Virus record (IMG/VR): IMGVR_UViG_3300031772_000205
Span: 1-28,997 of that record
Reading direction: 5' to 3' (one strand)
Length of the DNA: 28,997 bases
From: a virus
Position 1 is the first letter of the stretch. Each line of letters begins with the position of its first letter. The translations under genes and the position numbers were made by a program. Positions 16,776 to 28,997 of this stretch are shown here, piece after piece. The notes under the pieces were generated by a model. The model ran no database searches and had not been told where the DNA came from. It worked only from the letters and a program-made list of their open reading frames with translations.

Positions 16776-17046
16776 TGGTGTTGCTCCTTGAAGAGGGGCC
16801 CGCACCATGCAGGGCCCAAAGTTGCTCGTCGGTCAAGTTAAGGTTCTTCTGAATCCTGAGCCAAACTTCACGTCGCCCTTCGGCGACACAGTGAGCCCGT
16901 TCGTTGGAATTGAAGGTCGTTTCCGTAGCCCGGCAGAACCGGGCCAAGTCTTCGAGAACTTCCTGGCCCATCGGATTCAGAAAGGTTTTGCAGTAGACGT
17001 TTCGGCGCCTGCTGATAAAATCTCGGACCGCTTCTATGGGGGTCAT
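16768..17046 (-). CDS. Bbp19-family small phage protein
   Basis: This 92-residue helical protein carries a pattern conserved in the family named after BPP-1 Bbp19: FLNPMGQEVLEDLARFCRA, then FNSNERAHCVAEGRREVWLRIQ and LNLTDEQL. Members lie directly downstream of the portal gene in podophages. Its molecular role is unknown to me; a head-assembly or packaging accessory is plausible. It starts at ATG 17046, overlapping the portal stop as ATGA, and overlaps the scaffold start by eight bases, so the three genes are coupled. Confidence 0.8.
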   Translation of the reverse strand: MTPIEAVRDFISRRRNVYCKTFLNPMGQEVLEDLARFCRATETTFNSNERAHCVAEGRREVWLRIQKNLNLTDEQLWALHGAGPSSRSNTND

Positions 17047-18734
17047 ACCGGCTGCCCCATCGACTGGTTGGTGCCTTCAGGCGAAGCCGCCTTCATCATC
17101 TGGGCCATGCCGGGCAATGCCTGGGTGATCTGGGCAGTAGCCGTTTCAGCTTCGCGGCCCTTGCGGCGTGCGTCCACCGTCTCAGCATCCCGCAGGAACC
17201 GGAACGGAACTGCGTTGATGTCGGCCAGTTCGGGGATGATGGTATCCACGTCGAACCAATCCATCGCGCTGGGGTCCTGGGTCTGGGCGGCCATCTCGGC
17301 GGCCCATTGCATGGTGCGCATGGTTCCCGCAGCTTCCTCGGCCCGCATGGCGCGGTTCAAGGGCGCGTCGTATTCCACGTCATACTGAGCCCCGGCATCG
17401 ATGAGGATCTGAGGCGGGGGCGGGATCAAACCCTGGAACATGAGCAAGTCAAACTCACGTTCGATCATGGGGCCCAGGGCTTCAGCCTGGAACCGCCCCA
17501 TGGTGGGCGAGAGCAGGGCGCCCTTCTCGCGGGCCCGTTCCAAAACTTCCGTGGCCGTCATCTGAGGCGTCTCGACTAAGATCTGGAACAACGTCACCAG
17601 GAAGGCATCGTTGATGACCTGACGCTCATCGTCCATCATGTCCTTGCCGATGGCCAGGTTCCCCACAGGCAGCGCATGCACCAAGGCGCGGCCATCCGAG
17701 TTAACCCCGCCATAGTTCATCGCGCCCGGCTTCATGCTGAAGCCATCCAGGATGCCGTCATCATGCGCCAGCAAGACGGGGTCAACCGCACGGTGGCCCT
17801 GCTTCAGCATGGTCTTCTTCTCTTCGTTCAAGACGTTGATGGAAGGCAGCACGTTCATGGCAGGGGATCGGCCAAACAGTTCGCCGGGTGCTGTGAGATA
17901 CCGAGCAATGCTGTAGGGCATGCACCGATAGGCGCCCGTGCCGAGCAGGACTCGGCCTTCCTTGAGAATGTAATGGGACGAAAAGCGCTTGCCCTTCGAA
18001 TCCAACCGCCCCGGTTCAAACTCGCGGTTGGGACGAACGCAATGGATAATGGTTTCTTCCTGTTCGGCGTTCACGTCGAGCTTGGCCTGCATGCCTTCGG
18101 GCATCTTGTCTCGGCCCCACTTCTGAGCGATCTGCCGAAGCGTCATCTTGAAACGGCGGAACACTTTATCGGTCTGCCCCTGGTGGTTCACCCCGAAGAA
18201 CAGTTCCCCAAGGTGGACCTGCCGATACCGCAGCCCCTTCGCCGATGGTCGGGTGGGATCGGTGTAGGCATCCACGAACATGCAGCTTGTGCCGAACGCA
18301 CCAATGGAAACGTAGTTGTCGTGAATGTTCGCCTGGAATCCCGAGTGTGGGCTGTAGCGGTAATGGAACAGGGCATCGCTCACCGTATCGAACCACGCCA
18401 TGGTCGCCCGGTCTTTCTTGAGCACGGAATCAGTGGGCCGCATCCGGTGCCACCGGCTATTCGCCGGAGTCAACATGGATTCCATCGCCGCCGCGAACTT
18501 CCACAAGGCAGCATTCGCCGTCACGTCATACTGCTCTTGACTGCGCTTCTGCCCCGGCGTTTGGTTTCCCTGGCTGAAGAACGTGGTGGAGTAGTACGGC
18601 AGCACCTTCAGCGCCACTTCCTCCCAGTGATTCTCCCAAATGCCCCGGTGCTGGGAGGCGTTGGAGAATTCCCGCAGGATATCGCCCACCAATTCTTCGG
18701 AAGCTGTGCTCTTGGGGTCCAAGGTCGTTTCCAT
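17043..18734 (-). CDS. Portal protein (head-to-tail connecting protein)
   Basis: The 563-residue protein matches the T7-type head-to-tail connector family in length and pattern. It has an early WEEVALKVLPYYSTTFF-like block preceded by HRGIWENHWE, then LWKFAAAMESMLTP and WHRMRPTD. The central part has GRSPAMNVLPSINVLNEEKK, followed by TEVLERAREKGALLSPTMGR. Twelve copies are expected to form the ring at the packaging vertex through which terminase drives DNA. A weak GGGG site lies before ATG 18734, which is one base after the stop of the previous gene. The end overlaps the Bbp19-like start. Confidence 0.93.
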   Translation of the reverse strand: METTLDPKSTASEELVGDILREFSNASQHRGIWENHWEEVALKVLPYYSTTFFSQGNQTPGQKRSQEQYDVTANAALWKFAAAMESMLTPANSRWHRMRPTDSVLKKDRATMAWFDTVSDALFHYRYSPHSGFQANIHDNYVSIGAFGTSCMFVDAYTDPTRPSAKGLRYRQVHLGELFFGVNHQGQTDKVFRRFKMTLRQIAQKWGRDKMPEGMQAKLDVNAEQEETIIHCVRPNREFEPGRLDSKGKRFSSHYILKEGRVLLGTGAYRCMPYSIARYLTAPGELFGRSPAMNVLPSINVLNEEKKTMLKQGHRAVDPVLLAHDDGILDGFSMKPGAMNYGGVNSDGRALVHALPVGNLAIGKDMMDDERQVINDAFLVTLFQILVETPQMTATEVLERAREKGALLSPTMGRFQAEALGPMIEREFDLLMFQGLIPPPPQILIDAGAQYDVEYDAPLNRAMRAEEAAGTMRTMQWAAEMAAQTQDPSAMDWFDVDTIIPELADINAVPFRFLRDAETVDARRKGREAETATAQITQALPGMAQMMKAASPEGTNQSMGQPV

Positions 18735-18735
18735 G

Positions 18736-19128
18736 TTATTGCCCCAAGAGATACTTCGATGTGCTGTCGTTTCCAGCTAGCAGCGGCTGCGCAGGCTTCG
18801 CCACGGATTGAGCGTTCGCCGGGCTGGCCATCTGGCCTGGAGCGTAAACATACTGCCCCATGTCGGGCGCGGCCTTCACTTCGTAGCCGTAGAGCCCCAT
18901 CTTCAAACCCACGGGGTCGTAGGCATAGCGCCCAGCCTTGCCACCATACACGCCGGTCATCTGGCCCAGCGGATCCCACTTGCTTACTTCAGTTCTATAT
19001 TTGCTATCGCCATAGAAGTTAAGCGCAGTCCCAGCCGGATCGAACCGGGAGATGCCATCCTTCCAGCCGCTGATTCCACCGAACTGTGCCTTGTTCAGAT
19101 CCTTGCCAGCTTGAATCAATGCGCTCAC
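18736..19128 (-). CDS. Small head-region protein with C-terminal TSKxLLG tail
   Basis: The 130-residue protein is rich in Gly, Tyr and Trp, with repeated short units: FDPAGTALNFYGDSKYR, WDPLGQMTGVYGGKAG, YDPVGLKMGLYGYEVK. Each is a DP-G turn followed by YG about ten residues later, so it probably forms three similar structural repeats. The C-terminus STSKYLLGQ resembles the end of the neighbouring 69-residue protein (TSKVLLGR). The start is GTG 19128, supported by GGGGAGG within the previous gene's last codons. It sits between terminase and portal genes, so a head or packaging accessory is plausible. No named family is recognised. Confidence 0.68.
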   Translation of the reverse strand: MSALIQAGKDLNKAQFGGISGWKDGISRFDPAGTALNFYGDSKYRTEVSKWDPLGQMTGVYGGKAGRYAYDPVGLKMGLYGYEVKAAPDMGQYVYAPGQMASPANAQSVAKPAQPLLAGNDSTSKYLLGQ

Positions 19129-19130
19129 GG

Positions 19131-19340
19131 CTACCTCCCCAAGAGCACTTTCGATGTCGGGCTTGCCTTGGTGTTCACGCCTGCCCCGCCCGTAAGCATG
19201 GTGGACGTTCGGCCACGGCCCACACGTTCGGCCATCTGCCGTGCTGCGATGTCAGATTCCATCTGGCTACTGGCTACCGTAGGCGCCGGAGGCGGGGTGG
19301 ATGGTGCCTGCACTGTCGGCTTTTGGAACATACTACCCAT
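19131..19340 (-). CDS. Small conserved podophage protein between terminase and portal
   Basis: This 69-residue protein has a Pro/Ala-rich N-terminus (PSTPPPAPTV), a helical middle (MESDIAARQMAERVGRG), then RTSTMLTGGAG and a C-terminal TSKVLLGR. The R-TS-ML-TGG plus LLG pattern is common in small proteins placed between terminase and portal genes in podophages; function is unknown to me. GGGAGG precedes ATG 19340. The last codons GGG AGG TAG carry the ribosome-binding site of the next gene. Confidence 0.7.
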   Translation of the reverse strand: MGSMFQKPTVQAPSTPPPAPTVASSQMESDIAARQMAERVGRGRTSTMLTGGAGVNTKASPTSKVLLGR

Positions 19341-19378
19341 GGCTAGCCTCCCGCTTGAAGCCTAACACATTGAAGGCT

Positions 19379-20938
19379 CTAGGAAAACATGGCGTAATCC
19401 ACGTCTTTCGCAACCCTGGCATTTCCGGTCCACGTCCTGGAAGTCCTAGCGTCGTTCCGCGCCACCGGCTGAGCGAACGTCATGGCCAGCGCATCCGCCG
19501 AATCCGGTGATGCCATGCCCCGCTTGTCTCGCATATGTTCCTTACTTTCCAACACAATCTTGTTCGTCACCGGATGGTAATCGTATTCCGGACCCACCAG
19601 GTCAGACCGAAGATCCGAGTCGCTAGGCACGGCCCCGAGTGCCAACCACTCCTTCATGAGCCCCCAGATTTCAGCGCGCTTATTCAGGTATTTGTTTCCA
19701 TCGTTGGGACTTCCACCGGCCTGAACCTCGATCACCCGGAACTTCCAGGACTTGAGCATGTCCACCACGCCACCGCCCACACCGTTGCCGTCCACGAAGA
19801 TCGCGTCAACCTTGTGCTTCTGGGCAGCCTCGGCCACCATGTTCGCCACCTTTACGGTGTCATCACATTGGACTTTGATCCACGGGATCGTCCGTGCGTC
19901 GCGGCCCTTGCGAAATGCCAGCACCGTTTTATCCCGACCGCCACGCGCCACGTCCACCCCCAGGAGCAGAGGCGCACCTGGGTCGGCGCCCACTTCCCGG
20001 GCCACTGCGTCAGCAACCACTGAGTTTGAAATGAACTGCTTCGTGGCCTGGTTCGGGAACTTCCCGTAAACTTCCACCCTCGCTTCATCCGAATCCTCCC
20101 CGAACTCCTTGATGATTGCTTTGGCTTCATCCAGCGACACGCCTTCCACGTCGCGGATATCGATCTGAAGGGGCCGCCACTGATCCCGATTCTTGTGGAA
20201 GCACTCGAAGAATGCCCCATCGTTCCGACGTGGATTGGAGAACGCCAACCAAAAACGATTCTCGGTCTGCTCGGTGAACACGCCACGGGCCACAGTCCAA
20301 ATCTTTTCGGGGATACCCGACGCTTCGTCAAAGAGATAGCACTCGCCCTTGACGTTGTGGGCACCCGCGAATGCATCCGGATTCTCTTCGCTCCAAAGCT
20401 GGGCCGCGATATACCAGTATTGCGGATCCACCTTCAACTCGTCGCGCACCTTCTCGCTCAACCACTTGGCCGGAACGATGCTCGTGGCGTTGATGTCGAA
20501 CCAATGGGAGTTGATCGCCAGGGTGATCCACTTGCTGATTTCGGGAAACGTCTTGGTCTTAAGCTGCGGTTCGCCATTGGCGGCCACCCAGACGCTGGAG
20601 CCGATGCGCGTGGACACGGCCCAGTGGGATATCCACCCGAAGAACGCCGACTTGCCTGGACCGCGCCCGCTGGAGATGGCCTTCTTGAACATCTCGGGGA
20701 ACTCGCCGTTGATATGCTTGTGCCGCTGCGCATCCTTCAGATACGCCGACATCTCGTTAAGAACATCCTTCTGCCACTGCCGTGGCCCGTGGACGTGCTC
20801 CAGAGGCGTGCCTTCCTTACCCCAGGGGTAAACGAACATCACGAACTTGAGAAGATCGTCGGCCAACTCTGGCGACCACAAGTGGGCCATTAGGTCCTGC
20901 TCACCTTGGGCTGTGTAAACCGGTTGCGATGCCGCCAT
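19379..20938 (-). CDS. terL: Terminase large subunit (packaging ATPase/nuclease)
   Basis: The 519-residue protein has both terminase domains. The ATPase has a Walker A SGRGPGKSA (about 90-98) and Walker B YLFDE (201-205). The nuclease domain has LLGVDVARGG (Asp 329), FVDGNGVGG (Asp 383) and SPDSADALAM (Asp 479, Asp 482), the expected RNase H-fold acidic residues. It is expected to cut concatemers and pump DNA through the portal. ATG 20938 has no clear ribosome-binding site. Met 17 (20890, MAHLWSPEL) has AGGA five bases upstream, and family members often begin near this point, so the true start may be 20890. Confidence 0.95.
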   Translation of the reverse strand: MAASQPVYTAQGEQDLMAHLWSPELADDLLKFVMFVYPWGKEGTPLEHVHGPRQWQKDVLNEMSAYLKDAQRHKHINGEFPEMFKKAISSGRGPGKSAFFGWISHWAVSTRIGSSVWVAANGEPQLKTKTFPEISKWITLAINSHWFDINATSIVPAKWLSEKVRDELKVDPQYWYIAAQLWSEENPDAFAGAHNVKGECYLFDEASGIPEKIWTVARGVFTEQTENRFWLAFSNPRRNDGAFFECFHKNRDQWRPLQIDIRDVEGVSLDEAKAIIKEFGEDSDEARVEVYGKFPNQATKQFISNSVVADAVAREVGADPGAPLLLGVDVARGGRDKTVLAFRKGRDARTIPWIKVQCDDTVKVANMVAEAAQKHKVDAIFVDGNGVGGGVVDMLKSWKFRVIEVQAGGSPNDGNKYLNKRAEIWGLMKEWLALGAVPSDSDLRSDLVGPEYDYHPVTNKIVLESKEHMRDKRGMASPDSADALAMTFAQPVARNDARTSRTWTGNARVAKDVDYAMFS

Positions 20939-21002
20939 GGGTGAAGTATAGCCTTTCGAATGATTTTTGTTTTAGTTATAAATAAAAAATTTTTAGGTTT
21001 GA

Positions 21003-21157
21003 AGGATGCAAAGTTTGTCGGAGCTAGGTCCCGCTATGGCGATAGCGCACGATTTCTCACCCCCACCCCCACCCCCACCCCCCTGCGATAATTTAGGCAC
21101 CCCCCACCCCCCTCTGCATATTTCCGGGTCCATTCTCAACTGGATACTTTGCATCCT
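21003..21157. repeat. 12-bp inverted repeat flanking the G-tract region
   Basis: AGGATGCAAAGT at 21003-21014 and its perfect reverse complement ACTTTGCATCCT at 21146-21157 flank the C/G-tract block. Nearby, TGGATACTTTGCA (21141-21153) and TGGATACATTGCA (21171-21183) are direct repeats with one mismatch, and a further ATTGCA lies at 21161-21166. The set resembles protein-binding iterons in both orientations. The repeats are seen directly; binding is inferred. Confidence 0.75.
21060..21112 (-). promoter_or_regulatory. G-quadruplex-type G-tracts on the leftward strand
   Basis: The plus strand has C-tracts of 5, 5, 5 and 6 separated by single A (21060-21083), then two tracts of 6 separated by A (21100-21112). 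The leftward strand and its transcript therefore carry six runs of five or six G with one-base loops in the first four, an ideal quadruplex pattern. It could impede transcription, mark a packaging cut or regulate the terL message. Confidence 0.7.
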
Positions 21158-21255
21158 GACATTGCATACATGGATACATTGCAAAGAGGCATCTTACATT
21201 GAGACGTAGGGTTACATAATAACTATTAACACAAATCCGTTATTCATATCTTAAT

Positions 21256-21756
21256 CTAAGTAAAGATATCCTCGACCTTATCATCCAGCACCACTTCAGC
21301 ATCCTCGAACATGGGCACACTGAGAGCAGGCATCGATGCGCGGGACCTGGCCTGCGTCAGTGCGTCAGTGATGGAGATGGCCGTGGATACGTTCAGGTCC
21401 ACGCGATCGCCGTAGACTCGCTGATTGTATTTCGATGCAGCCCAACGCCTAATATCGGCCATGTTGCGGCCACGCTGCGGGTCAATGTCCGGATTGTCTA
21501 CGGCTGATATGGCTTCATCAACCAAAACATCGGCTTGCATCTCACGAGCACGGCTATAAGAAACTGACAATTCTTTACTACTTGAGACGGCCACATGGAA
21601 AGCGTGCAACGTGCATCCCGCCTGAGCGCACGCTTTACGCAAGGTCAAGCCTTCCATGATCCCAGCAACTACTCTCCGCCCAGCTTCCATTTGTGCAGCT
21701 TGCCTGGCATCGGCTAAGGCTGGATTCCGGGATTTACTCAGAGTTGCCAAGTCCAT
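21256..21756 (-). CDS. terS: Terminase small subunit
   Basis: The 166-residue protein has an N-terminal helix-turn-helix-like segment (VVAGIMEGLTLRKACAQAG, then LHAFHVAVSSS) and a following helical region. The motif WAASKYNQRVYGDRVDLNV (residues about 105-123) is typical of Sf6-type small terminases. It is expected to recognise the packaging site and hand DNA to TerL. AGGAG lies eight bases before ATG 21756. It is the first leftward gene after the divergent control region, but terL starts only 317 bases later, with an unusual non-coding gap between. Confidence 0.9.
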   Translation of the reverse strand: MDLATLSKSRNPALADARQAAQMEAGRRVVAGIMEGLTLRKACAQAGCTLHAFHVAVSSSKELSVSYSRAREMQADVLVDEAISAVDNPDIDPQRGRNMADIRRWAASKYNQRVYGDRVDLNVSTAISITDALTQARSRASMPALSVPMFEDAEVVLDDKVEDIFT

Positions 21757-21905
21757 CTTTCACGCTCCTGCACAAAAATATCCTTATTTTTCAACGTTTT
21801 CCACCGGTGTGACCAAAGTCACACAACTTTTTGTAGCGAAGTCCGCTACACGCCCCATACTTGAATCACTGGCGGATGGCCGCCCTCATTGCCTCGGAGG
21901 CACAA
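21757..21905. promoter_or_regulatory. Divergent control region between late-left and early-right blocks
   Basis: Both transcription blocks begin here. It contains an AT-rich part next to terS (21774-21791), a CRP-type palindrome (21807-21824), a second 7-bp hairpin TGTAGCG-AAGTC-CGCTACA (21832-21850), and a GC hairpin GGCGG-ATGG-CCGCC (21871-21884). Promoters for both directions are expected, but I find only weak matches: for the rightward side CATACT at 21856-21861 as a possible -10 box. Assignment as control region is from gene layout. Confidence 0.7.
21807..21824. promoter_or_regulatory. Perfect CRP/Clp-type operator (TGTGA-N6-TCACA)
   Basis: The sequence GTGTGACCAAAGTCACAC contains TGTGA (21808-21812), six bases, and TCACA (21819-21823), which is the exact consensus core of the cAMP receptor protein site; Clp in Xanthomonadaceae reads the same core. 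It is also a 7-bp hairpin followed by AACTTTTT, so an intrinsic terminator on the plus strand is an alternative, though no gene upstream needs one. Confidence 0.6.
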
Positions 21906-22019
21906 ATGAATCTAGAGCTTATCCTCTCACCTTGCGAACTTGAAGATCTGGGCTACCGGCTCGAAACACTCGCCGAACTCCAGAGCCTGCTCTGCGAAAC
22001 TTTTCAGGCATCCTTCTAA
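21906..22019 (+). CDS. Small leucine-rich acidic peptide, first early gene
   Basis: A 37-residue frame starts at ATG 21906 with GGAGG five bases upstream (CTCGGAGGCACAA). The sequence is Leu- and Glu-rich, with MNLELILSPCELEDLGYRLE leading into a second helix (TLAELQSLLCETFQ). It probably folds as a helical hairpin. The stop overlaps the frame that contains the next gene. As the first rightward gene it is probably expressed earliest; small acidic first genes in phages are often host-modifying factors, but nothing specific is recognisable. Confidence 0.62.
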   Translation: MNLELILSPCELEDLGYRLETLAELQSLLCETFQASF

Positions 22020-22036
22020 TGCCAACAGGAGATGAG

Positions 22037-22261
22037 ATGGCCAAGCGAATCAACGTTGAATGCAAGGGTCACTACGACACCAACGCAACAGCCACAATCA
22101 AAGCTGAGGTGCTTCCGACTGGATACGCATTCATTTCCGAAAGGCAGTATCGGGACGCGGTGAATCGTGCGGGACTGGTGAGCGGTGACTACCTCGTGTT
22201 CTCTCCGCTCAGCGATGATACATGGTCCACCACCGATGACGGCTGGATGACGGTCATCTAA
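22037..22261 (+). CDS. Small early protein, unknown
   Basis: I choose ATG 22037 (MAKRINVEC) because AGGAG lies five bases upstream; an ATG at 22019 overlaps the previous stop but has no site. The 74-residue product has strands such as ATATIKAEVLPTGYAFIS, a helix (RQYRDAVNRAGL) and the end GWMTVI. It reads as a small alpha-beta domain. No family is recognised. Its stop shares one base with the tiny membrane peptide that follows, so translation of the pair is probably coupled. Confidence 0.62.
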   Translation: MAKRINVECKGHYDTNATATIKAEVLPTGYAFISERQYRDAVNRAGLVSGDYLVFSPLSDDTWSTTDDGWMTVI

Positions 22262-22326
22262 TGCGACGCTGGCTACTGCTCGGCTTCATCGTCTCCGGAT
22301 TCATAACCTTCCTCTCTTGTCTTTAG
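22261..22326 (+). CDS. Tiny membrane peptide (21 residues)
   Basis: ATG 22261 overlaps the stop of the previous gene by one base (TAATG). The predicted peptide starts MRRWLLLGFIVSGF and ends FLSCL, that is two Arg followed by a single hydrophobic segment and a Cys near the end. Its stop lies within the ribosome-binding site of the next gene (TAGGAG). A membrane peptide is a reasonable reading; a leader that couples translation of the two neighbours is an alternative. Confidence 0.45.
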   Translation: MRRWLLLGFIVSGFITFLSCL

Positions 22327-22334
22327 GAGCTAAC

Positions 22335-22577
22335 ATGCAATTTACATTCGAACTCACTGACACGTTCGGCGGAGAAGCAAACTATTCGTGGGTTAAGCGC
22401 CACGCCCACCAGACCAAAAACGAAAACCCCTCAGACCTTTCACTAGTTAGGGCCGCCAAAGCCTGGGCGGGATGGCAGGAGATACAATGCACCATCGAGA
22501 CTTGGGGAGAAACCATCGCCATTCACCCGGCTGGAATGTGCTTGGTGCTGTTCGTAGCGCCCTCGGACCAAGTGTAG
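22335..22577 (+). CDS. Small early protein, unknown
   Basis: The 80-residue protein starts at ATG 22335, with AGGAG placed five bases upstream (AGGAGCTAACATG). It contains FTFELTDTFGGEANYSWVKR at the N-terminus, a helix (SLVRAAKAWAGW) and a C-terminal strand (GMCLVLFVAP). It is the last gene before the 323-base repeat-rich gap. No family is recognised. Composition is like its neighbours, with no sign of recent transfer. Confidence 0.65.
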   Translation: MQFTFELTDTFGGEANYSWVKRHAHQTKNENPSDLSLVRAAKAWAGWQEIQCTIETWGETIAIHPAGMCLVLFVAPSDQV

Positions 22578-22643
22578 GCTGTTCCCCCTGTTCCCCCATC
22601 CTCTCACCATCGCAGAACAAAAAATCCTTATACAGTATATACA

Positions 22644-22694
22644 ATGTACCTATATATCTTACTTTTCTTAGATTAAAAAGATATATAGGTACAT
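22644..22694. repeat. 17-bp perfect inverted repeat
   Basis: The left arm at 22644-22660 (ATGTACCTATATATCTT) and the right arm at 22678-22694 are exact reverse complements with a 17-base spacer. The arms are AT-rich, and no U-run follows on either side, so an ordinary intrinsic terminator is unlikely. It could extrude as a cruciform, bind a dimeric regulator, or form a long RNA hairpin. Confidence 0.9.
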
Positions 22695-22780
22695 ACACTC
22701 AAAAACACCCACCGGAAAAACATATATTTTCCCCCCGTGGTTTTCCCGCCCTCACGTTTCCCCGGCGGAGTTCAAAACCA

Positions 22781-22869
22781 CTAAGAATACTAAGAACGTA
22801 AGAACATGCTACTCTCGCTAAGCGCATATCGTTCCCCGTGGCCTAGAACAACATAGAACACACGGAACA
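22781..22869 (+). repeat. Iteron-like short repeats
   Basis: TAAGAA occurs at 22782, 22791 and 22799 (spacing 9 and 8), and TAGAACA at 22844 and 22854 followed by GGAACA at 22864 (spacing 10). Regular spacing near one helical turn fits cooperative protein binding. The repeats lie within 110 bases of the start of the next gene. Confidence 0.6.
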
Positions 22870-22900
22870 AAACCCCTCAAAACAACTCTCAGGAGCTAAA

Positions 22901-23182
22901 ATGTTGCGAACTACCCAAAAAGAACTCGAAGCCTTGGTCGCCCAGATTAATGATTTTCACGGCTTCGAAGGTAAAAAAGTCTGGAATACTGTGGACGGGA
23001 AAAATTTTTCCACCGTCGGAATGTTCACCCTTTACTACGCCTATGGCGCGGTTAGCCTGCATCGCATCGCCAACCAAGGCGGAGGGGTCTCTGAGATTAT
23101 CCCGCTATCGACCAAGCGCGAACTGGCAGGAAGGCTCCGATCCCTGTACCAAGGCTTAGCCATGGTGCGCACCACTGAATGA
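22901..23182 (+). CDS. Conserved small phage protein, unknown
   Basis: The 93-residue protein starts at ATG 22901 with AGGAG five bases upstream (AGGAGCTAAAATG). It has a helix (TQKELEALVAQINDFHGF), an aromatic beta region (FTLYYAYGAVSLHRIANQGGG) and a C-terminal helix (TKRELAGRLRSLYQGL). The pattern AYG-VSLHRI-N-GGG seems familiar from small phage and prophage proteins of unknown function. It is the first gene after the candidate origin region and is followed by a repeated GGCGCC hairpin. Confidence 0.7.
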   Translation: MLRTTQKELEALVAQINDFHGFEGKKVWNTVDGKNFSTVGMFTLYYAYGAVSLHRIANQGGGVSEIIPLSTKRELAGRLRSLYQGLAMVRTTE

Positions 23183-23187
23183 TCCCT

Positions 23188-23220
23188 ATCCTTTGGCGCC
23201 TACGCGGCGCCTAAGCATGG
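23188..23220 (+). repeat. Intergenic GGCGCC hairpin element, copy 1
   Basis: ATCCTTTGGCGCC, a 5-base loop, and GGCGCCTAAGCATGG form a GC hairpin six bases after the stop of the 93-residue gene. A second hairpin ATGGGA-ATTG-TCCCAT follows (23217-23232). The same element recurs at 24043-24074. No U-run follows, so it is not a typical terminator; it may be a processing or control site. Confidence 0.75.
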
Positions 23221-23252
23221 GAATTGTCCCATCTCTCCCAATGGAGCCCGAT

Positions 23253-23564
23253 ATGCAAGTCCACTTTAACCTTTTCACCTTGACCCTAACCCTGTCAGAT
23301 GCCCAAACGGGAAGTCACCAAGGCCGATGCGACGCAGATATCTCGTACCTTCGCTGCCAGCCAAGGATCCGCCGCCAACTGGCCAAGCTTGACCCTGAAG
23401 CCGTAGCCTCCGAACTGAAAGAGTTTGGCACGTGGGACGCCACCGAGTTAGCCTGCGAGGATGACAATTTAAGCCGCATCCTCTGGATCGCATGCGGAAA
23501 TATCGTGGAAGAGGCAAGCGATAAAAAGCGGGCGCGTGAAACCGCTAAAGAATTGAACCGATAG
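23253..23564 (+). CDS. Small early protein, unknown
   Basis: I choose ATG 23253 (MQVHFNLFTLTL) since TGGAG lies six bases upstream; two in-frame ATGs at 23217 and 23241 lack good sites. The 103-residue product has an N-terminal strand (VHFNLFTLTLTLSDAQ), then helices (RIRRQLAKLDPEAVASELKE) and an acidic middle (ELACEDDNLSRILW). The end is charged (EASDKKRARETAKELNR). No family is recognised. Confidence 0.65.
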   Translation: MQVHFNLFTLTLTLSDAQTGSHQGRCDADISYLRCQPRIRRQLAKLDPEAVASELKEFGTWDATELACEDDNLSRILWIACGNIVEEASDKKRARETAKELNR

Positions 23565-23608
23565 CCTAACCCTCCCACCTTCCCCAATCATCCTTGAAAG
23601 GACCCACC

Positions 23609-24040
23609 ATGCGATGCACCAACCAAGTCCCCGAACTAAACGAAAACGGCCAGGTCAAACTTCGCCGGCCAAAGGGTTGCTACTGGGCACCATGCCAAAC
23701 GGCCATGATCCTGTCCGGTGAACCGGCGCCTCACCTTCTCAAGGGCGATGGCCGGGCACCTGTATCAATTCAGACCTACACCTGCCCGGCGTGTGGTGCT
23801 TCCCAGACCATCCAGGACTTTGGCCAGCTAGATGGCGTCAAGAAAACTCCGAAAAAAGACCTTTACAAGGTCAAGGCGCCCAGAGTTCAGCGGCTCAAGT
23901 ATTACATGCGATGGGCTACACAGGATGGCCATGGCCATGAGGAGCAATTCAGCACGGCGAAAGAGATGCGACTGGCAGAACCGCGCATCCGCTACACCGC
24001 CGATGCCATCACTTCCTCAGTCGAGATGCTTAGCCGCTGA
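23609..24040 (+). CDS. Cys-containing early protein, possible zinc ribbon
   Basis: The 143-residue protein starts at ATG 23609 after AAAGGA. It has five Cys in the first half: Cys 3, the pair in GCYWAPC, and TCPACGA, which resembles half of a zinc ribbon. The C-terminal half is basic and helical (KKDLYKVKAPRVQRLKYYMR). Nucleic-acid binding is plausible. An alternative start at TTG 23594 has no site. It is followed by the second copy of the GGCGCC hairpin element. Confidence 0.65.
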   Translation: MRCTNQVPELNENGQVKLRRPKGCYWAPCQTAMILSGEPAPHLLKGDGRAPVSIQTYTCPACGASQTIQDFGQLDGVKKTPKKDLYKVKAPRVQRLKYYMRWATQDGHGHEEQFSTAKEMRLAEPRIRYTADAITSSVEMLSR

Positions 24041-24042
24041 CC

Positions 24043-24074
24043 ATCCTTTGGCGCCACTAGGCGCCTAAGCATGG
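24043..24074 (+). repeat. Intergenic GGCGCC hairpin element, copy 2
   Basis: ATCCTTTGGCGCC, a 4-base loop (ACTA), and GGCGCCTAAGCATGG, located two bases after the stop of the previous gene. The two copies share 28 identical bases and differ in the loop only, while flanking genes differ. Both are followed by a GGAG site and GATATG start. Confidence 0.75.
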
Positions 24075-24100
24075 CCAGTGCACCATTGTCGGGAGACGAT

Positions 24101-24589
24101 ATGATTAACTTAGACTTGATTTTAGCCAGTCACGCCGGATGGCTGAAAGGTGCGCACGAAGGAAAACGCGCGAACCTCAGTGTCGCGAACCTCAGAAACG
24201 CGAACCTCAGTGTCGCGAACCTCAGAAACGCGAACCTCATTGGCGCGAACCTCAGAAGCGCGGACCTCAGTGGCGCGGACCTCAGTGGCGCGGACCTCAG
24301 TGGCGCGGACCTCAGAAACGCGAACCTCAGAGGCGCGGACCTCAGAAACGCGAACCTCAGAGGCGCGGACCTCAGAAACGCGAACCTCGATTTTGCATCC
24401 TGGCCTCTGCATTGCGGCGGAGCATTGGCTAAATTCGACACCAGGCTAGCGCTTCAACTCATCTATCACGCATTCAACCAAGATCACCAGGACCCTGAGA
24501 TATTGAAGGCCTTGGAACCTCTTCGCCCCTTGGCCCAGAGGTTTATCTCAGAGTTTAGGACCGATGCGACACCCCTCAGAACCTTGTGA
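24101..24589 (+). CDS. Pentapeptide-repeat protein
   Basis: The 162-residue protein starts at ATG 24101 with GGGAG five bases upstream; an in-frame ATG at 24071 has no site. Residues 23-97 form fifteen uninterrupted five-residue units of the A(N/D)LxX type (for example GADLS, NANLR), which should fold into a right-handed quadrilateral beta-helix. A helical C-terminal domain follows ([20 protein letters not shown], then [15 protein letters not shown]). Some pentapeptide proteins mimic DNA and protect or inhibit gyrase (Qnr, MfpA); the chain here is short, so this is only a possibility. Repeat codons are nearly identical over 225 bases, suggesting recent expansion. Confidence 0.9.
24167..24391 (+). 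repeat. 15-bp tandem repeats encoding the pentapeptides
   Basis: Fifteen 15-base units, many identical, combine into 30-base higher units (GCGGACCTCAG plus GCGAACCTCAG types). The frame is free of stops in several other frames and on the other strand, which is a by-product of the repeat. Confidence 0.9.
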
Positions 24590-24594
24590 CCAAG

Positions 24595-24615
24595 ATCACT
24601 AGACCGCTTCATTTT
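24595..24615 (+). repeat. Intergenic TAGACCGCTTC element, copy 1
   Basis: TAGACCGCTTCATTTT at 24600-24615, preceded by ATCAC, lies after the pentapeptide gene. A copy with one mismatch in 21 bases occurs at 25230-25250. Placement after a stop and before the next gene in both cases suggests a regulatory or processing element. Confidence 0.7.
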
Positions 24616-24636
24616 TATTTTCCCTTCCACCCACCA

Positions 24637-24672
24637 TTGCTTTTGTTTCACTGGACGCTACACTTACCCCTA
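24637..24672 (+). promoter_or_regulatory. Sigma-70-like promoter for a leaderless regulator message
   Basis: TTGCTT (24637-24642), a 16-base spacer and TACACT (24659-24664) match the -35 and -10 boxes reasonably. The ATG begins eight bases after the end of the -10 box, where transcription would normally start. No ribosome-binding site precedes the gene. This fits leaderless translation. Confidence 0.5.
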
Positions 24673-25016
24673 TGCGAAACATGCCCTCCGAACCCGACAA
24701 GCCAGTGAAACCACGCATCTTGCGTCCACGCTACGACCAAGCCGCCAAAATTATCAGCAAGTTCGGTGGAGAGGCACGCTTCGCTAAAATCGTGGGAGTT
24801 CATCGTGTGACTGCCTATCGGTGGAAGTCTCCGGCCCCTTGGGGCACTGATGGGCTCATCCCACATCGTCAGATTGCCAGGATCAAAGCAGTTGCTCGTG
24901 TTTACGGCGTGCTACTCACCGATGCCGACTGGGCGCCGAACCATATCGATTACTCAGGCATTCCGGATGGTGCATACCTTCCGGATCCGTTTCCTACGCT
25001 GACGTTCGGCCTATGA
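24672..25016 (+). CDS. Helix-turn-helix regulator (carph-isopro/Cro-like)
   Basis: The 114-residue protein has an N-terminal basic segment and a helix-turn-helix at about residues 24-53: AAKIISKFGGEARFAKIVGV, with recognition helix HRVTAYRWK. The following GLIPHRQIARIKAVARVYG matches the small Cro/carph-isopro domain, which binds operator DNA as a dimer. It is probably a control protein for the phage. No ribosome-binding site is seen and a promoter abuts the ATG, so its message may be leaderless, as known for lambda cI from PRM. The stop overlaps the next gene (ATGA). Confidence 0.8.
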   Translation: MRNMPSEPDKPVKPRILRPRYDQAAKIISKFGGEARFAKIVGVHRVTAYRWKSPAPWGTDGLIPHRQIARIKAVARVYGVLLTDADWAPNHIDYSGIPDGAYLPDPFPTLTFGL

Positions 25017-25222
25017 ATCCGCCGCGCTATTTCTCAGTGCATCCGTTCATAGGCGAAAAACGAGACTATACCAAAGCATCTTGGAAATCAATTTCAGGCT
25101 ATTGCCGAGCAGTTAACCGGATAATCTCAGCCGAGATGCAAAAAACCGAATTGGAAACCGAGCGATCATTCCTTGAAGTTTGCATTTACGGGCAGTCCAT
25201 CACGCGGCTGCCTAAGCCCTAG
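25013..25222 (+). CDS. Small protein coupled to the regulator gene
   Basis: The 69-residue protein starts at ATG 25013, overlapping the regulator stop as ATGA. It is mixed in charge with helices (TKASWKSISGYCRAVNRIIS, EMQKTELETERSFLEVC) and two Cys. No family is recognised. The overlap suggests joint expression with the regulator, for example as a partner, but this is only context. Confidence 0.62.
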   Translation: MNPPRYFSVHPFIGEKRDYTKASWKSISGYCRAVNRIISAEMQKTELETERSFLEVCIYGQSITRLPKP

Positions 25223-25229
25223 CCCGGTT

Positions 25230-25250
25230 ATCATTAGACCGCTTCATTTT
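25230..25250 (+). repeat. Intergenic TAGACCGCTTC element, copy 2
   Basis: The 16-base core TAGACCGCTTCATTTT (25235-25250) is identical to copy 1 and lies eight bases after the stop of the coupled gene, upstream of AAAAGGA for the next gene. Confidence 0.7.
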
Positions 25251-25264
25251 CAAAAGGACCCAGC

Positions 25265-25429
25265 ATGCTGACCTACACCGAGATGCTTCCGCACTCAACC
25301 AAGCCAATGGACCCGCAGGAAACCCGATACGAGGAAAACACTGGCGGATGCCTCGGATGCGCCTTAGCCGTGGCCGCCGTGCTGGGGGTGTTCTGTGGGC
25401 TCATGCTTGTGTGGGTGGTGCTGGGATGA
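25265..25429 (+). CDS. Small single-span membrane protein (54 residues)
   Basis: ATG 25265 follows AAAGGA. The first half is polar (MLTYTEMLPHSTKPMDPQE) and the second half is one membrane segment: GCLGCALAVAAVLGVFCGLM, then LVWVVLG at the C-terminus. Two Cys lie before the segment and one inside. The product is probably a membrane protein with a cytoplasmic N-terminus and no C-terminal domain. The stop overlaps the next start as ATGA. It could affect the host envelope; holin-like action is possible but unproven. Confidence 0.62.
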   Translation: MLTYTEMLPHSTKPMDPQETRYEENTGGCLGCALAVAAVLGVFCGLMLVWVVLG

Positions 25430-25782
25430 TCGCTAGCAAAGATCCCAAGCCGGAAGCGCCGCCGAAAGCCAAAGGCTACCAGTGCAAGCCCATCGCCCAG
25501 CATATCCACCGCCAAAAGGCGCCGGGATCCCTTCAACATGCGCAGGGCAAACAAGCCAGGATCCACATTTACATCCCCGAACCGGCCCAGGCCATCCAGG
25601 ACTTAGCCGAGCACGAAAAGACTAGACCGGATCACATTAAAGCTACCCACCCCAACGCACCTAACGCTTTGCGAAAGGCTTGGGAGAAGTGGCGCGACGA
25701 TCACCTGCACCTTCGCTGCCTGCTAACGATGGCCGAAAAGGCCGAGCATGCCGGATGGAAGCCTTTGAAAGGAAACGAATAA
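25426..25782 (+). CDS. Small basic early protein, unknown
   Basis: I choose ATG 25426, which overlaps the previous stop as ATGA; a longer in-frame start at 25348 would run through the membrane gene. The product has 118 residues, is rich in Lys, Pro and His, and has the pattern KPIAQHIHRQKAPG, YIPEPAQAIQDLAEHEKTR, and a Trp-rich helix (ALRKAWEKWRDDHLHLRCL). Basic charge suggests nucleic-acid binding. The stop overlaps the next start (TAATG). No family is recognised. Confidence 0.65.
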   Translation: MIASKDPKPEAPPKAKGYQCKPIAQHIHRQKAPGSLQHAQGKQARIHIYIPEPAQAIQDLAEHEKTRPDHIKATHPNAPNALRKAWEKWRDDHLHLRCLLTMAEKAEHAGWKPLKGNE

Positions 25783-25955
25783 TGCCTCTCTATGATTACA
25801 AATGCGCCAATGGCCACAAAGAAGAGGATGTGCGAGAGCAGCACACTGCGCCAACCGTTCACCCATGCCCAATCTGTGGCGCTGACTCCGAACGTCAAAT
25901 GTCTTTTCCGAGCCGGATCGTGTTCGTGCAATGTATCAACCGGATCCCGATTTAG
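25782..25955 (+). CDS. FmdB-type zinc ribbon protein
   Basis: The 57-residue protein begins MPLYDYKCANGHKEED, the typical start of the FmdB family, and has a second CPICG. Likely zinc ligands are Cys 8, His 12, Cys 29 and Cys 32. FmdB ribbons are small putative regulatory or nucleic-acid-binding proteins. The start overlaps the previous stop by one base, with AAAGGA upstream. The C-terminus after the ribbon is short (RIVFVQCINRIPI). An overlapping frame continues to 26032, next to a GTCCA element, so a frame disruption near residue 50 is possible. Confidence 0.8.
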   Translation: MPLYDYKCANGHKEEDVREQHTAPTVHPCPICGADSERQMSFPSRIVFVQCINRIPI

Positions 25956-26032
25956 GCGCCTGCTCTATTCCGAGAGCAGAACCAAGAAACCCAACAACAA
26001 CGCAGGACAGCGCCCATTTTGGGATTGGCTGA
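25931..26032 (+). CDS. Possible small gene or displaced FmdB C-terminus
   Basis: A 33-residue frame, MYQPDPDLGACSIPRAEPRN and so on, opens at ATG 25931 within the end of the zinc-ribbon gene and closes at TGA 26030-26032. It has no ribosome-binding site. The stop is followed, after four bases, by GTCCA, exactly as at nearby gene junctions, which suggests that this is a true gene end. It may therefore be the natural C-terminus of the FmdB-type protein in a shifted frame. Confidence 0.35.
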   Translation: MYQPDPDLGACSIPRAEPRNPTTTQDSAHFGIG

Positions 26033-26054
26033 TTCTGTCCAAGATCGGAGCGAT

Positions 26055-26180
26055 ATGAAATTCGGGAAAATAGCCAATCCGACCATGTGGGCTTTCGGTA
26101 TCACGAGCCTGATTTACCCCGAAACAGGGAAGCGCACTTTGGCGTTTCACGTTGGGAGATTCACCCTCGTCGTCTTCTAA
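26055..26180 (+). CDS. Small protein of 41 residues, unknown
   Basis: ATG 26055 follows CGGAG by four bases. The sequence starts MKFGKIANPTMWAFG, has ITSLIYPETGKRTLAFHV and ends RFTLVVF. It reads as a small beta hairpin with two basic residues between strands. No family is recognised. Strong start, short spacing to the next gene, and a GTCCA element upstream support it as real. Confidence 0.55.
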   Translation: MKFGKIANPTMWAFGITSLIYPETGKRTLAFHVGRFTLVVF

Positions 26181-26190
26181 GGAAACCTGA

Positions 26191-26514
26191 ATGAACCTCG
26201 AACATGGCAATGCCACTCGAAAACGTATTCTTAGTGCAGCTTCCTCCACAGCCATGAGACCAGCCGCTAACCCCATCCAGATTGCCGCGAAGCTCTATGA
26301 CTGTCGAGACACCATGAAATCTCTGTTTGGCGAAACCTACAGCGAAGTGACCCGCGAATACAAGGAACACCTCCAGGCATTCGCAGACCGGAACAAAGTG
26401 AGCGTTATTGATGCAGCCCTATCCATCGCCAAAGGTTTGGAAGCGAACGGGCATGGTAGGGCGATCCCCCTGCTACTCGCCTCTGCTGTCGAACTTGTCG
26501 AGCCTTCCATTTAG
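26191..26514 (+). CDS. Small helical early protein, unknown
   Basis: The 107-residue protein starts at ATG 26191, with AAGGAA overlapping the stop of the previous gene. It has a basic N-terminus (NATRKRILSAASS), then helices: IQIAAKLYDCRDTMKSLFG, EVTREYKEHLQAFADR, and VIDAALSIAKGLEANG. The composition suits a small DNA-binding or adaptor protein, but no family is recognised. Confidence 0.68.
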   Translation: MNLEHGNATRKRILSAASSTAMRPAANPIQIAAKLYDCRDTMKSLFGETYSEVTREYKEHLQAFADRNKVSVIDAALSIAKGLEANGHGRAIPLLLASAVELVEPSI

Positions 26515-26549
26515 CTCTTGTCCACATTCACGAACCATCCGGAGAATCT

Positions 26550-26948
26550 ATGACAATCGCATTTTCGACCAACGAAGAGGAATACCGGGACGAAGGAGAT
26601 TCGACCCGCGAAGATGCCATTCTTCGCTGCATCAACGAGGAAGATTTGGAAGTCGGGCAGCACTGTTGGACGGCGGTGCCAAAGCCCGTCGATCTGAAAC
26701 GGTTCTTGCCACGCGCTGAACGCCTCCTGGAAACCATCAGCGAACAAGCCTATGACGAATGCGGCGAGTGCGCCGAATCGTGGCTGGAAGGTCTGCCTAA
26801 AGAACAGGTCCAAGACCTCGAAGAGATGGTCCATGCCGCGATTGTGGCGTGGATGGAAAAGCACAACGAGCTTCCCCACTTCTGGAGCGTGGAACAGGTT
26901 CAAAAACACGAAGTCACCCAAGAACTCTTCCTTCAGGCGCAGTCCTGA
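26550..26948 (+). CDS. Acidic conserved phage protein, unknown
   Basis: The 132-residue protein is strongly acidic (e.g. FSTNEEEYRDEGDSTRED, INEEDLEVG). A C-terminal pattern ECGECAESWLEGLPKEQVQD, LEEMVHAAIVAWMEKHN and PHFWSVEQV resembles a common small phage protein of unknown function. Strong acidity is seen in DNA-mimic inhibitors, so that is one possibility. CGGAG precedes ATG 26550. The previous junction has a GTCCA element. Confidence 0.7.
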   Translation: MTIAFSTNEEEYRDEGDSTREDAILRCINEEDLEVGQHCWTAVPKPVDLKRFLPRAERLLETISEQAYDECGECAESWLEGLPKEQVQDLEEMVHAAIVAWMEKHNELPHFWSVEQVQKHEVTQELFLQAQS

Positions 26949-26967
26949 ATCTGTCCAGGAGCACGAT

Positions 26968-27276
26968 ATGACCGTCGCCCAAGAGAACCGCTGGAAGCGG
27001 AAGTGCATTGCTGATTTCAACGCGGTCAATGATCGCCAGATCGAAGCCGAGGCGTTTTCTCGGCCCAAATTCACCCGGCTCCCGGTTGCGCCCCCGTCTG
27101 CCAATCCGACCCGCCGTGAGGTGCGGAACTGGATGCGCCTGAACTGGTCAGACTACGAGACGGCGACCGCACTCGCGGAAGGCGTCAACGTCGCGCTGAA
27201 CCTCCCCAAAGAATGGCTTGATGATCCCGACCACTGGGTTTGGGACGAAGCCCTGCTTGCCCACGATGGCGAGTGA
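26968..27276 (+). CDS. Small early protein, unknown
   Basis: I choose ATG 26968 (MTVAQENRWKRKCI), with CCAGGAG upstream; an in-frame start at 26752 would run far into the previous gene. The 102-residue product has a basic helix at the start, a Pro-rich middle (FTRLPVAPPSANPTRREV), and a Trp-rich acidic end (LPKEWLDDPDHWVWDEALL). No family is recognised. Confidence 0.65.
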   Translation: MTVAQENRWKRKCIADFNAVNDRQIEAEAFSRPKFTRLPVAPPSANPTRREVRNWMRLNWSDYETATALAEGVNVALNLPKEWLDDPDHWVWDEALLAHDGE

Positions 27277-27298
27277 TGTCCAGGATAAGGAACCCTCC

Positions 27299-27511
27299 AT
27301 GCAAGTCCACAAGATTGAAATCCTCGTGATCGACTTTGATGAATGCGGAGCCGAGGGCGTGAAAGAAGTCATCGAGAACACCCGCTACCCGAATCGCTGC
27401 ATCAATCCCGAGGTCAAGAAGATCACAACCGTTGAGACGAAGTGGAGCGATGAGCACCCGCTCAACCATCTAGAAACTGCCGACGCGGCTTACCGCATCA
27501 TGTTCGGCTAA
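27299..27511 (+). CDS. Conserved small phage protein, unknown
   Basis: The 70-residue protein starts at ATG 27299 after AAGGA. The pattern IEILVIDFDECGAEGVKEVI, then ENTRYPNRCINPEV and WSDEHPLN is one I recall from small phage proteins without known function. It is predicted as a compact alpha-beta fold. An in-frame start at 27218 overlaps the previous gene and has no site. Confidence 0.72.
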   Translation: MQVHKIEILVIDFDECGAEGVKEVIENTRYPNRCINPEVKKITTVETKWSDEHPLNHLETADAAYRIMFG

Positions 27512-27529
27512 GCATGTCCAGGAGTCACG

Positions 27530-27628
27530 ATGCCTTGGGATGAAATCCGACAGAACAAAGTCGCTCTTACCCTGATGGTGATTGCCATTGTTATTTCCAT
27601 CTACGCAATCGCAACGCGCACCTTCTAA
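27530..27628 (+). CDS. Tiny membrane protein, paralogue A (32 residues)
   Basis: ATG 27530 follows TGTCCAGGAGTCACG. The sequence starts MPWDEIRQNKVALTLMVIAI and continues VISIYAIATRTF: a polar head of ten residues and one membrane segment. It is closely related to the gene at 27921 (22 of the first 25 residues identical), including the linker before it, so the pair arose by duplication. The family is not one I recognise. A small membrane effector or regulator is plausible. Confidence 0.62.
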   Translation: MPWDEIRQNKVALTLMVIAIVISIYAIATRTF

Positions 27629-27667
27629 CTCGCTGATGTCCAACCTCATCCCATTGAAAGGAATCCC

Positions 27668-27901
27668 ATGCCACCGAAACGACCAAGCCCCGCGAAGCTC
27701 CAAGCCACTTGTGATGCCTGGAACGCCAAGCATCCCGTTGGGACGCCCGTGATCCTCAACAAGGACGGGGTTGGAGACGTTGAAACCGCCACCACTTCCG
27801 TCGCACATGTATTAAGCGGTCACAGCGCCGTGATTTGGCTGGAGGGCATCAGCGGGTGTTACCTACTCTCCCACGTTCGCCCCCTACCCTTCCCCGTCTA
27901 G
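27668..27901 (+). CDS. Conserved small phage protein, unknown
   Basis: The 77-residue protein starts at ATG 27668 after AAAGGAATCCC. It has a helix (PAKLQATCDAWNAKHPVG), and a beta-rich part with VETATTSVAHVLSGHSAVIW followed by LEGISGCYLLSHVRPL, a pattern I recall from small phage proteins where a WNAKHPVGTPV-like start is followed by a GH-AV-W-EG core. No function is known to me. It lies between the two paralogous membrane genes. Confidence 0.72.
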   Translation: MPPKRPSPAKLQATCDAWNAKHPVGTPVILNKDGVGDVETATTSVAHVLSGHSAVIWLEGISGCYLLSHVRPLPFPV

Positions 27902-27920
27902 CTCTTGTCCAGGAGTCACT

Positions 27921-28025
27921 ATGCCTTGGGATGAAACCCGACAGAACAAAGTCTCTCTTACCCTGATGGTGATTGCCATTGTTGTTTCCATCAGCGCCCT
28001 CCTTCTCTCCGAACTCTGCAACTAA
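27921..28025 (+). CDS. Tiny membrane protein, paralogue B (34 residues)
   Basis: ATG 27921 follows TGTCCAGGAGTCACT. The sequence starts MPWDETRQNKVSLTLMVIAI and continues VVSISALLLSELCN. The head and first half of the membrane segment match paralogue A almost residue by residue; the C-termini differ. The DNA of the two genes is also nearly identical over the first 70 bases, so the duplication is fairly recent or is kept alike by selection. Confidence 0.62.
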   Translation: MPWDETRQNKVSLTLMVIAIVVSISALLLSELCN

Positions 28026-28070
28026 GCCTGTCCAGGCTCTGCCATGGACTCAATTTAAAGGAAACCCCAC

Positions 28071-28322
28071 ATGGTCACGATGATCACCGCCCTGACGATC
28101 CAGCAGCATGGAGACGACGAAATCCGAACATGCGCTGGGCAGGACAAGAAGACCAAGAAATGGGCTGGCTTCATCAACCTGTATCACGGGGATGACTACC
28201 ACACCCTTCTCATCAGTTCCGATCCTATTTTCGATTTGGAAAGCCTCGCCATCGACGCCATGACCAAGCTCATCCAGGAAATTCGAGGGGTGGACTTGGC
28301 TGCGAAATGCGCTGAAGCCTGA
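28071..28322 (+). CDS. Small early protein, unknown
   Basis: The 83-residue protein starts at ATG 28071 after AAAGGA, with a GTCCA element 37 bases upstream. It has strands ITALTIQQHGDDEIRTCAG and KWAGFINLYHGDDYHTLL, then a helix (LESLAIDAMTKLIQEIRG), a mixed alpha-beta layout. Two Met codons at its start (28071, 28080) leave slight doubt about the start. No family is recognised. Confidence 0.68.
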   Translation: MVTMITALTIQQHGDDEIRTCAGQDKKTKKWAGFINLYHGDDYHTLLISSDPIFDLESLAIDAMTKLIQEIRGVDLAAKCAEA

Positions 28323-28364
28323 GCACGTCCATCAACTGCATCACCCCATCGCCCAGGAGGGCAC

Positions 28365-28511
28365 GTGGACACCGAAACCCCATGCAGATACCTACGGCAT
28401 GACCTCAGCCCGGTGTCCGTATGCACGTTCGCACCCACATTCGTTCCAGTCTGCCCAGCGGACTGCCGCCGATGTGAGGCGCATGACACATTCCCATCGC
28501 AGCCCGAATGA
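28365..28511 (+). CDS. Small Cys-rich protein, possible zinc binder
   Basis: GTG 28365 follows CAGGAGG by four bases. The 48-residue product has Cys 7, 20, 30, 34 and 37 and a His at 40 (VPVCPADCRRCEAH), a spacing compatible with a zinc knuckle. The first half is Pro/Val-rich. It is the last gene before the resolvase and is too short for homology judgement. The strong site and GTCCA-flanked junctions support it. Confidence 0.6.
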   Translation: MDTETPCRYLRHDLSPVSVCTFAPTFVPVCPADCRRCEAHDTFPSQPE

Positions 28512-28531
28512 GGCTGTCCAGGAGCACACCG

Positions 28532-28997
28532 ATGCCCAACCTAATCTTAGGCTTCGACCCAGGAATGGGCGGCGCCATCGCACTTTACGACCCCAAAGAA
28601 CCGAAGCGCAGCCAAGTGTGGGATATGCCTAAGGCCATCAAAGGCATTGACGCGCCCAAGTTGTCCGACCTTTTGGGGTGCATCATGGCAGAAGACCTGG
28701 ATCGATCTTTCTCGGCTATCGTCGAAAACGTAGGCTCTCGCCCACGTCAAGCCGGAGCCTTTAACTTCGGCTTGTCCACCGGCATCATCCATGGCGTGTT
28801 GGCCACGCTCGAAATACCGTTTACCCTCGTCACCCCAACCGAGTGGAAAGGCGCGATGGGGCTTACCCGCTACCCTGAAGAGACTCAGGACCAAAACAAG
28901 CAACGGGCCCGCCTGCTGGCGATCCAGCTTTTCCCTGGACTCGCCGAAGACCTCAAGCTCATGCGCCATGATGGCCGGGCTGAAGCCTTGCTCATGG
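28532..28997 (+). CDS. RuvC-like Holliday-junction resolvase, N-terminal part (cut by the right edge)
   Basis: From ATG 28532 an open frame runs off the edge with 155 residues visible. It has the RNase H-fold pattern of RuvC: LGFDPGMGGAIAL (Asp 9), AIVENVGSRP (Glu 65), FNFGLSTGIIHGVL, TPTEWKGAMG and RHDGRAEALLM (Asp 147), all expected catalytic positions. Phage versions resolve branched intermediates so that DNA can be packaged and may assist replication. TGTCCAGGAGCACACCG precedes the start. The missing end should be about 10-30 residues. Confidence 0.9.
   Translation, partial: MPNLILGFDPGMGGAIALYDPKEPKRSQVWDMPKAIKGIDAPKLSDLLGCIMAEDLDRSFSAIVENVGSRPRQAGAFNFGLSTGIIHGVLATLEIPFTLVTPTEWKGAMGLTRYPEETQDQNKQRARLLAIQLFPGLAEDLKLMRHDGRAEALLM

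Follow-up and report, generated by a model that had tools for sequence, protein, structure and literature searches.

A candidate iteron-type replication origin with an AT-rich dyad in a BcepC6B/BPP-1-like podovirus

The origins described so far that most resemble the locus reported here are those of the P4 and PICI satellites and of pRN1. In the P4 crr, the type 1 repeats (8 bp) annotated in the record lie at 4314 and 4323 on the + strand, 9 bp apart, and at 4366 and 4384 on the - strand, and they surround an AT-rich stretch of 31 % GC; P4 has two cis regions. PICI/SaPI origins are built of two iteron sets flanking an AT-rich region. The pRN1 origin contains a hairpin and no iterons, and is located 3′ of its replication gene; passages of PMC4234260 show that pRN1 requires a 100-nt stem-loop to replicate. 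These passages also describe the replication proteins of BPP-1/BIP-1 as similar to those of pRN1 and propose a stem-loop 3′ of the replication gene. BIP-1, which is nearly identical to BPP-1, was searched for repeats in that work, and the passages do not report iterons of the type that we find in BPP-1.

Here we describe a non-coding gap at positions 22578-22900 of a 28,997-nucleotide viral contig (IMG/VR record IMGVR_UViG_3300031772_000205, referred to as the window). Judged from its sequence, this gap is probably the replication origin of a BcepC6B/BPP-1-like podovirus, of the P4/PICI-like iteron type and melted at an AT-rich dyad. We regard an origin as the best reading because most TerL relatives have an AT-rich element in the same position, a subset of them with strong iterons, and because BPP-1, BcepC6B and the P4 crr show the full layout of iterons, AT-rich stretch and inverted iterons.

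The window covers part of a BcepC6B/BPP-1-like podovirus genome and lacks its replication genes: none was found on the 28,997-bp contig, which stops before them. Portal relatives occur in named phages including MW202898 (54.7 %) and Burkholderia phage BcepC6B (39.9 %). The - strand to the left of 21.8 kb carries structural genes encoding the terminase small and large subunits, a head-tail adaptor (PHROG 332, E 3e-142) and an internal virion protein. Small early genes occupy the + strand from 22.0 kb onwards, among them genes for a Cro-like protein (weak Pfam match, E 0.0034) and for a RuvC-like resolvase truncated at the contig's right end. A pentapeptide-repeat-like protein is encoded at 24071-24589, which places it between the element and the Cro-like gene; near the corresponding position in three relatives (L006, L007 and L022) a CI-like repressor is encoded on the opposite strand; the window showed no such repressor. 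A terminator-like hairpin with a T-run lies at 21807-21824, where terS and the first + strand gene diverge; it is the one such hairpin found where 1.6 are expected by chance.

The gap itself is bordered by the stop codon of the preceding gene at 22577 and by the AGGAG-ATG that opens the next gene at 22901. Both neighbors are on the + strand and of unknown function, the upstream gene (22335-22577) encoding 80 aa of PHROG 22729 and the downstream gene (22901-23182) 93 aa of PHROG 15017. A search for relatives of the 22901 protein found none; relatives of the 22335 protein comprise 63 loci (L055-L117), which were excluded from the inverted 8-mer scan and the word-count scan described below. The open reading frames that cross the gap (22472-22801 on the + strand, 22447-22698 on the - strand) overlap a likely gene in other frames, and we consider the gap non-coding.

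Within the gap lies a perfect dyad (22644-22694) with 17-bp arms at 22644-22660 and 22678-22694 that are 100 % complementary and enclose a 17-nt loop. The next-longest perfect inverted repeat in the contig is 11 bp, with loops of up to 60 allowed, and none of 2000 first-order Markov versions of the gap contained an inverted repeat longer than 11 bp. The folding energy of the hairpin as single-stranded DNA is -13.4 kcal/mol (z -6.2). The dyad falls in the AT-richest 100 bp of the contig (22606-22705; 26 % GC versus 56.9 %, z -5.6), which is the proposed melting region. A pattern search for the dyad stem in viral_contigs and a distant BLASTN comparison of the gap with phages both returned no match.

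Short repeats stand on both sides of the dyad. At the left edge, two tandem 9-mers, CTGTTCCCC CTGTTCCCC, occupy 22579-22596 (copies at 22579 and 22588, assigned to the - strand, where they read GGGGAACAG), and the contig has no other copy on either strand. Unit length and spacing of this pair equal those of pairs in BPP-1 and BcepC6B, and the 9-bp spacing is also that of the P4 crr. On the right, TAAGAA is found three times on the + strand within 22782-22804 (at 22782, 22791 and 22799, spacing 9 and 8), followed at 22844-22869 by TAGAACA, TAGAACA and GGAACA, again on the + strand, spaced by about 10 and inverted relative to the left pair. Together with an inverted copy at 22665, TAAGAA occurs 4 times in the gap versus 0.07 expected, and TAGAACA (22844 and 22854) twice versus 0.01, expectations that flatter the result as the words were picked after inspection. 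The core of CTGTTCCCC reads GAACA on the opposite strand, and this word is found again on the + strand at 22615, 22802, 22846, 22856 and 22865; GAACA/TGTTC is present 7 times in the gap versus 1.04 expected, and the contig's densest 323-bp windows for GAACA are located here. Two further + strand stretches have counterparts in relatives when aligned by eye: the block AGAACAAAAAATCCTTATACA (22614-22634) is partly matched in L006 and L003, an alignment that carries no score, and the box CACGTTTCCCCGGCGGA (22753-22769) corresponds in place to CACGTTTCCCCAGCGGA in L136. The order of the gap is thus iteron pair, AT-rich dyad, C-rich box and phased repeats inverted versus the pair.

Most of this anatomy had been recognized in the initial annotation, and its account of 323 non-coding bases with a 17-bp perfect AT-rich inverted repeat, pyrimidine tracts, TAAGAA at a spacing of 8-9 bases and TAGAACA at a spacing of 10 is borne out in each part and in its coordinates; it had missed the tandem CTGTTCCCC pair at the left edge and the inverted GAACA core on the right. 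The repeats are short and degenerate. Exact 7-mer repetition per 600-bp tile is not special at the gap, with 78 of 91 tiles doing as well. Of 33 places tested, 7 have inverted iteron pairs of exact 7-mers, at least two on each side; the window is not one of the 7.

We compared the gap with loci that TerL scans had recovered from viral contigs and from a small number of genome contigs. Of 53 loci, 39 have their AT-richest 100 bp at 1-5 kb upstream of terL, where 15.1 are expected at random; this count covers 53 of 54 loci (L130 was dropped for masked bases) and retains the near duplicates L136/L137 and L194/L195. In L010 and L011 the AT minimum is found beside terS, and it was not taken as the same element. 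Exceptions to the 1-5 kb position number 14. For loci of at least 12 kb the corresponding count is 21 of 31, versus 7.0 expected. When placed in one orientation, the stretches from relatives show an AT-rich core that contains runs like CTATTCTTTCTAAAGAATAAATAGA in L152, and the short flanking repeats differ by phage.

The distance between the element and terL varies widely. This speaks against a packaging (cos/pac) or partition site, a reading that we consider very improbable; the start of terS only 0.8 kb to the left of the gap would agree with packaging, and partition sites are also made of iterons, but integrases occur in two relatives and no partition gene was present among the proteins scanned.

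Words repeated at the element and seldom elsewhere, different in each phage, are GAGGGAAC in L027 (10 copies), GTGTAGCA in L015 (7 copies), ATAGGGAC in L012 (6 copies), GCGTAACA in L025 (6 copies) and AAACTGGA in L009 (4 copies). Strong iterons of this kind are confined to a subset of relatives. L012 also has a second repeat family, AATACACC, which at 5224-5724 occurs in both orientations and overlaps the element beside TGTCCCTA repeats. In the core flanks of 18 sequences without strong private words, one of them the window, enrichment is highest for four 6-mers, GTAGAA, TAGAAT, CGTAGA and CTAGAA (best p 6.4e-8 over 1909 words, an optimistic value as the set was picked by eye). By its letters, TAGAACA of the window belongs to the GTAGAA/TAGAAT/CTAGAA word set.

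Dyads are also a recurrent part of the element. In 14 of 31 cores, the window's among them, the best dyad is stronger than in dinucleotide shuffles (p<=0.05), and this holds for 12 of 29 relatives when the window and the simple-repeat core of L194 are left out (pooled p 1e-9, overstated as the loci are related to each other). The close relatives whose element could be read, L003, L006 and L007, have no significant dyad (p 0.84, 0.89 and 0.31). A long perfect dyad is thus particular to the window's phage, and dyads of modest strength are common in the group.

These results bear on a pRN1-type origin, at which the initiator would recognize the stem-loop as a structure and the repeats would be incidental. 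The one strong hairpin of the window fits such an origin, as does the published proposal for BPP-1/BIP-1. However, when we folded the 150 nt located 3′ of the longest ORF, taken as PrimPol, the stretch beat its shuffles (z < -2) in only 1 of 14 relatives (in L184 the ORF is probably the wrong one). The BPP-1 stretch at 27040-27180 folds at a z of only -1.25, and a clear iteron element lies 0.5 kb from it. With strong dyads also missing from L003, L006 and L007, we consider a pRN1-type origin quite unlikely, and an iteron origin is better supported than a hairpin recognized as such.

The clearest iteron layouts were found in BPP-1 and BcepC6B by scanning for any 8-mer that occurs twice, plus twice inverted, within 320 bp. 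The scan points to exactly one place in Bordetella phage BPP-1 (L196, 26607-26710) and to one in BcepC6B, which spans the record ends; BcepC6B was scanned as a join of end and start that contains about 0.5 kb twice. Overall, the scan gave a match in 12 of 143 loci, BPP-1 and phiVC8 among them, the match of phiVC8 lying inside annotated genes near its record end. No place was found in the window or in MW202898. In BPP-1, TTGCCTCGT is repeated twice at 9-bp spacing, followed by an AT-rich core with GTTTCTCAT/ATGAGAAAC arms and by two copies of AAACGAGGC, again 9 bp apart. The BcepC6B element consists of two copies of GGGACGATA, a CCCTATCTTTTT dyad and two copies of TATCGTCCC, and is split across the ends of the linear record (L054 1-101 and the end of L197). 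Each place is also the AT-richest 100 bp, of the BPP-1 genome in one case and of the two BcepC6B pieces in the other (L054 from base 32), and both elements are located between the terminase genes and the PrimPol gene. The BPP-1 record carries no annotation at 26607-26710. Based on this layout, 26607-26710 is likely to be the origin of BPP-1. Among the papers listed by searches of the open literature we recognized none that describes the BPP-1 or BcepC6B iterons.

A candidate common initiator is encoded in most relatives. Prim-Pol was found in 18 of 22 relatives' records and DUF5906 in 17 of 22, and in L006, L007 and L022 both domains belong to a single protein of 727-746 residues. In these three, the ones examined, a family A DNA polymerase adjoins the PrimPol-DUF5906 protein, and in two of them an integrase is nearby. 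VapE was also considered as the common initiator, but just 2 of 12 records contain it, and DUF5906 and Prim-Pol are the better candidates. The last 120 residues of PrimPol are less alike than the whole protein in most pairs (the L184 row of this comparison probably represents a wrong ORF), which is only suggestive of a link between iteron word and initiator tail.

In the proposed mechanism, the initiator would combine a PrimPol, an SF3-type helicase and a DNA-binding tail in one protein, its gene expected beyond the right end of the contig. This protein would bind the short iterons on both sides, the CTGTTCCCC pair on the left and the inverted TAGAACA/GGAACA on the right, and would assemble as a ring, probably as two facing rings. 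The rings would melt the AT-rich dyad between them and then unwind, and the initiator would prime synthesis for the phage DNA polymerase A. The anatomy of the gap and the proteins of the relatives are observed directly, as is the recurring, often iteron-flanked element; the presence of this initiator in the window's phage, its binding to the repeats and every subsequent step are inferred.

A turn of the GC skew at the gap, which the initial annotation had named as support for an origin, did not appear: the turn is 4.3 kb away from the element in the window and about 1.7-5.7 kb away in five comparison genomes. Separately, the skew in the window (15900-28997) drops steadily from about 16-18 kb to the right end, passing through the coding-strand switch at 21.8 kb.

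The initial annotation had offered a master control site beside an origin, and the gap could be a control region of the early operon, with operators for a repressor or activator or an mRNA-leader hairpin of the 22901 gene. Its location between two + strand genes, the second with a Shine-Dalgarno-like sequence, agrees with this, and palindromes and phased repeats fit regulators too. However, a consensus search found no sigma-70-like promoter or terminator in the gap, and no Rfam family matches it, the sole match (mir-1277) being a chance one far under threshold. The genes flanking the element are convergent, co-directional or divergent depending on the phage, so the element is independent of transcription in one direction; in L006 and L009 it lies between convergent genes, where no leader is needed. 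CI and Cro, with a divergent intergenic region, are located elsewhere in relatives, which leaves a master control site unsupported. A control region is thus unlikely, and the AT-rich element in relatives and the iteron layout favor the origin half of the earlier proposal.

How far can the origin reading be extended to the group? There is about an even chance that BPP-1/BcepC6B-like podoviruses share a P4/PICI-style origin, with an AT-rich dyad set between inverted iterons, in which layout and position are kept and the iteron word is rewritten in each phage. If so, initiator and iterons would work as a rapidly changing lock and key by which each phage keeps its replication to itself, and this origin would replace the published stem-loop proposal for BPP-1-type phages. 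For the BPP-1/BcepC6B group, which includes model phages with an origin that has so far only been guessed at, the elements described here offer a concrete and testable candidate, together with a natural set of initiator-iteron pairs in which the evolution of replication specificity can be studied.

Compared with the known systems, the window shares with pRN1 a hairpin, and its relatives share with pRN1 a PrimPol-SF3 helicase initiator; no PrimPol gene is found in the window with the gap at its 3′ side, the location of the pRN1 origin. PICI origins likewise lie just 3′ of the initiator gene, as do the elements of BPP-1 (0.5 kb) and BcepC6B, but not that of the close relative G001, where about 12 kb separate the PrimPol gene from the element, and in the window no initiator was found beside the gap. 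The gap has the AT-rich core of the PICI layout, and its repeats on the two sides resemble that layout only loosely. Relative to the P4 crr it has an exact pair on the left and degenerate words on the right, and the exact 8-mer scan does not find the full layout in it. The direct words of the P4 crr, CTGTTCACA and CTGTTCACC, are one or two letters off the window's CTGTTCCCC, which occurs twice at 9 bp; this likeness may be chance, since the words differ widely among relatives. The P4 alpha protein is an initiator joining primase and helicase, as in the PrimPol-helicase of the relatives, although the P4 primase is of the bacterial Toprim type, according to PMC4234260, and that of the relatives is a PrimPol. 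The window's group consists of full-size tailed phages, whereas the published account describes the PICI layout as present in no other known bacterial replicon. A shared origin would thus extend a layout said to be unique to PICIs, linking tailed phages to the P4 and PICI satellites through one kind of origin.
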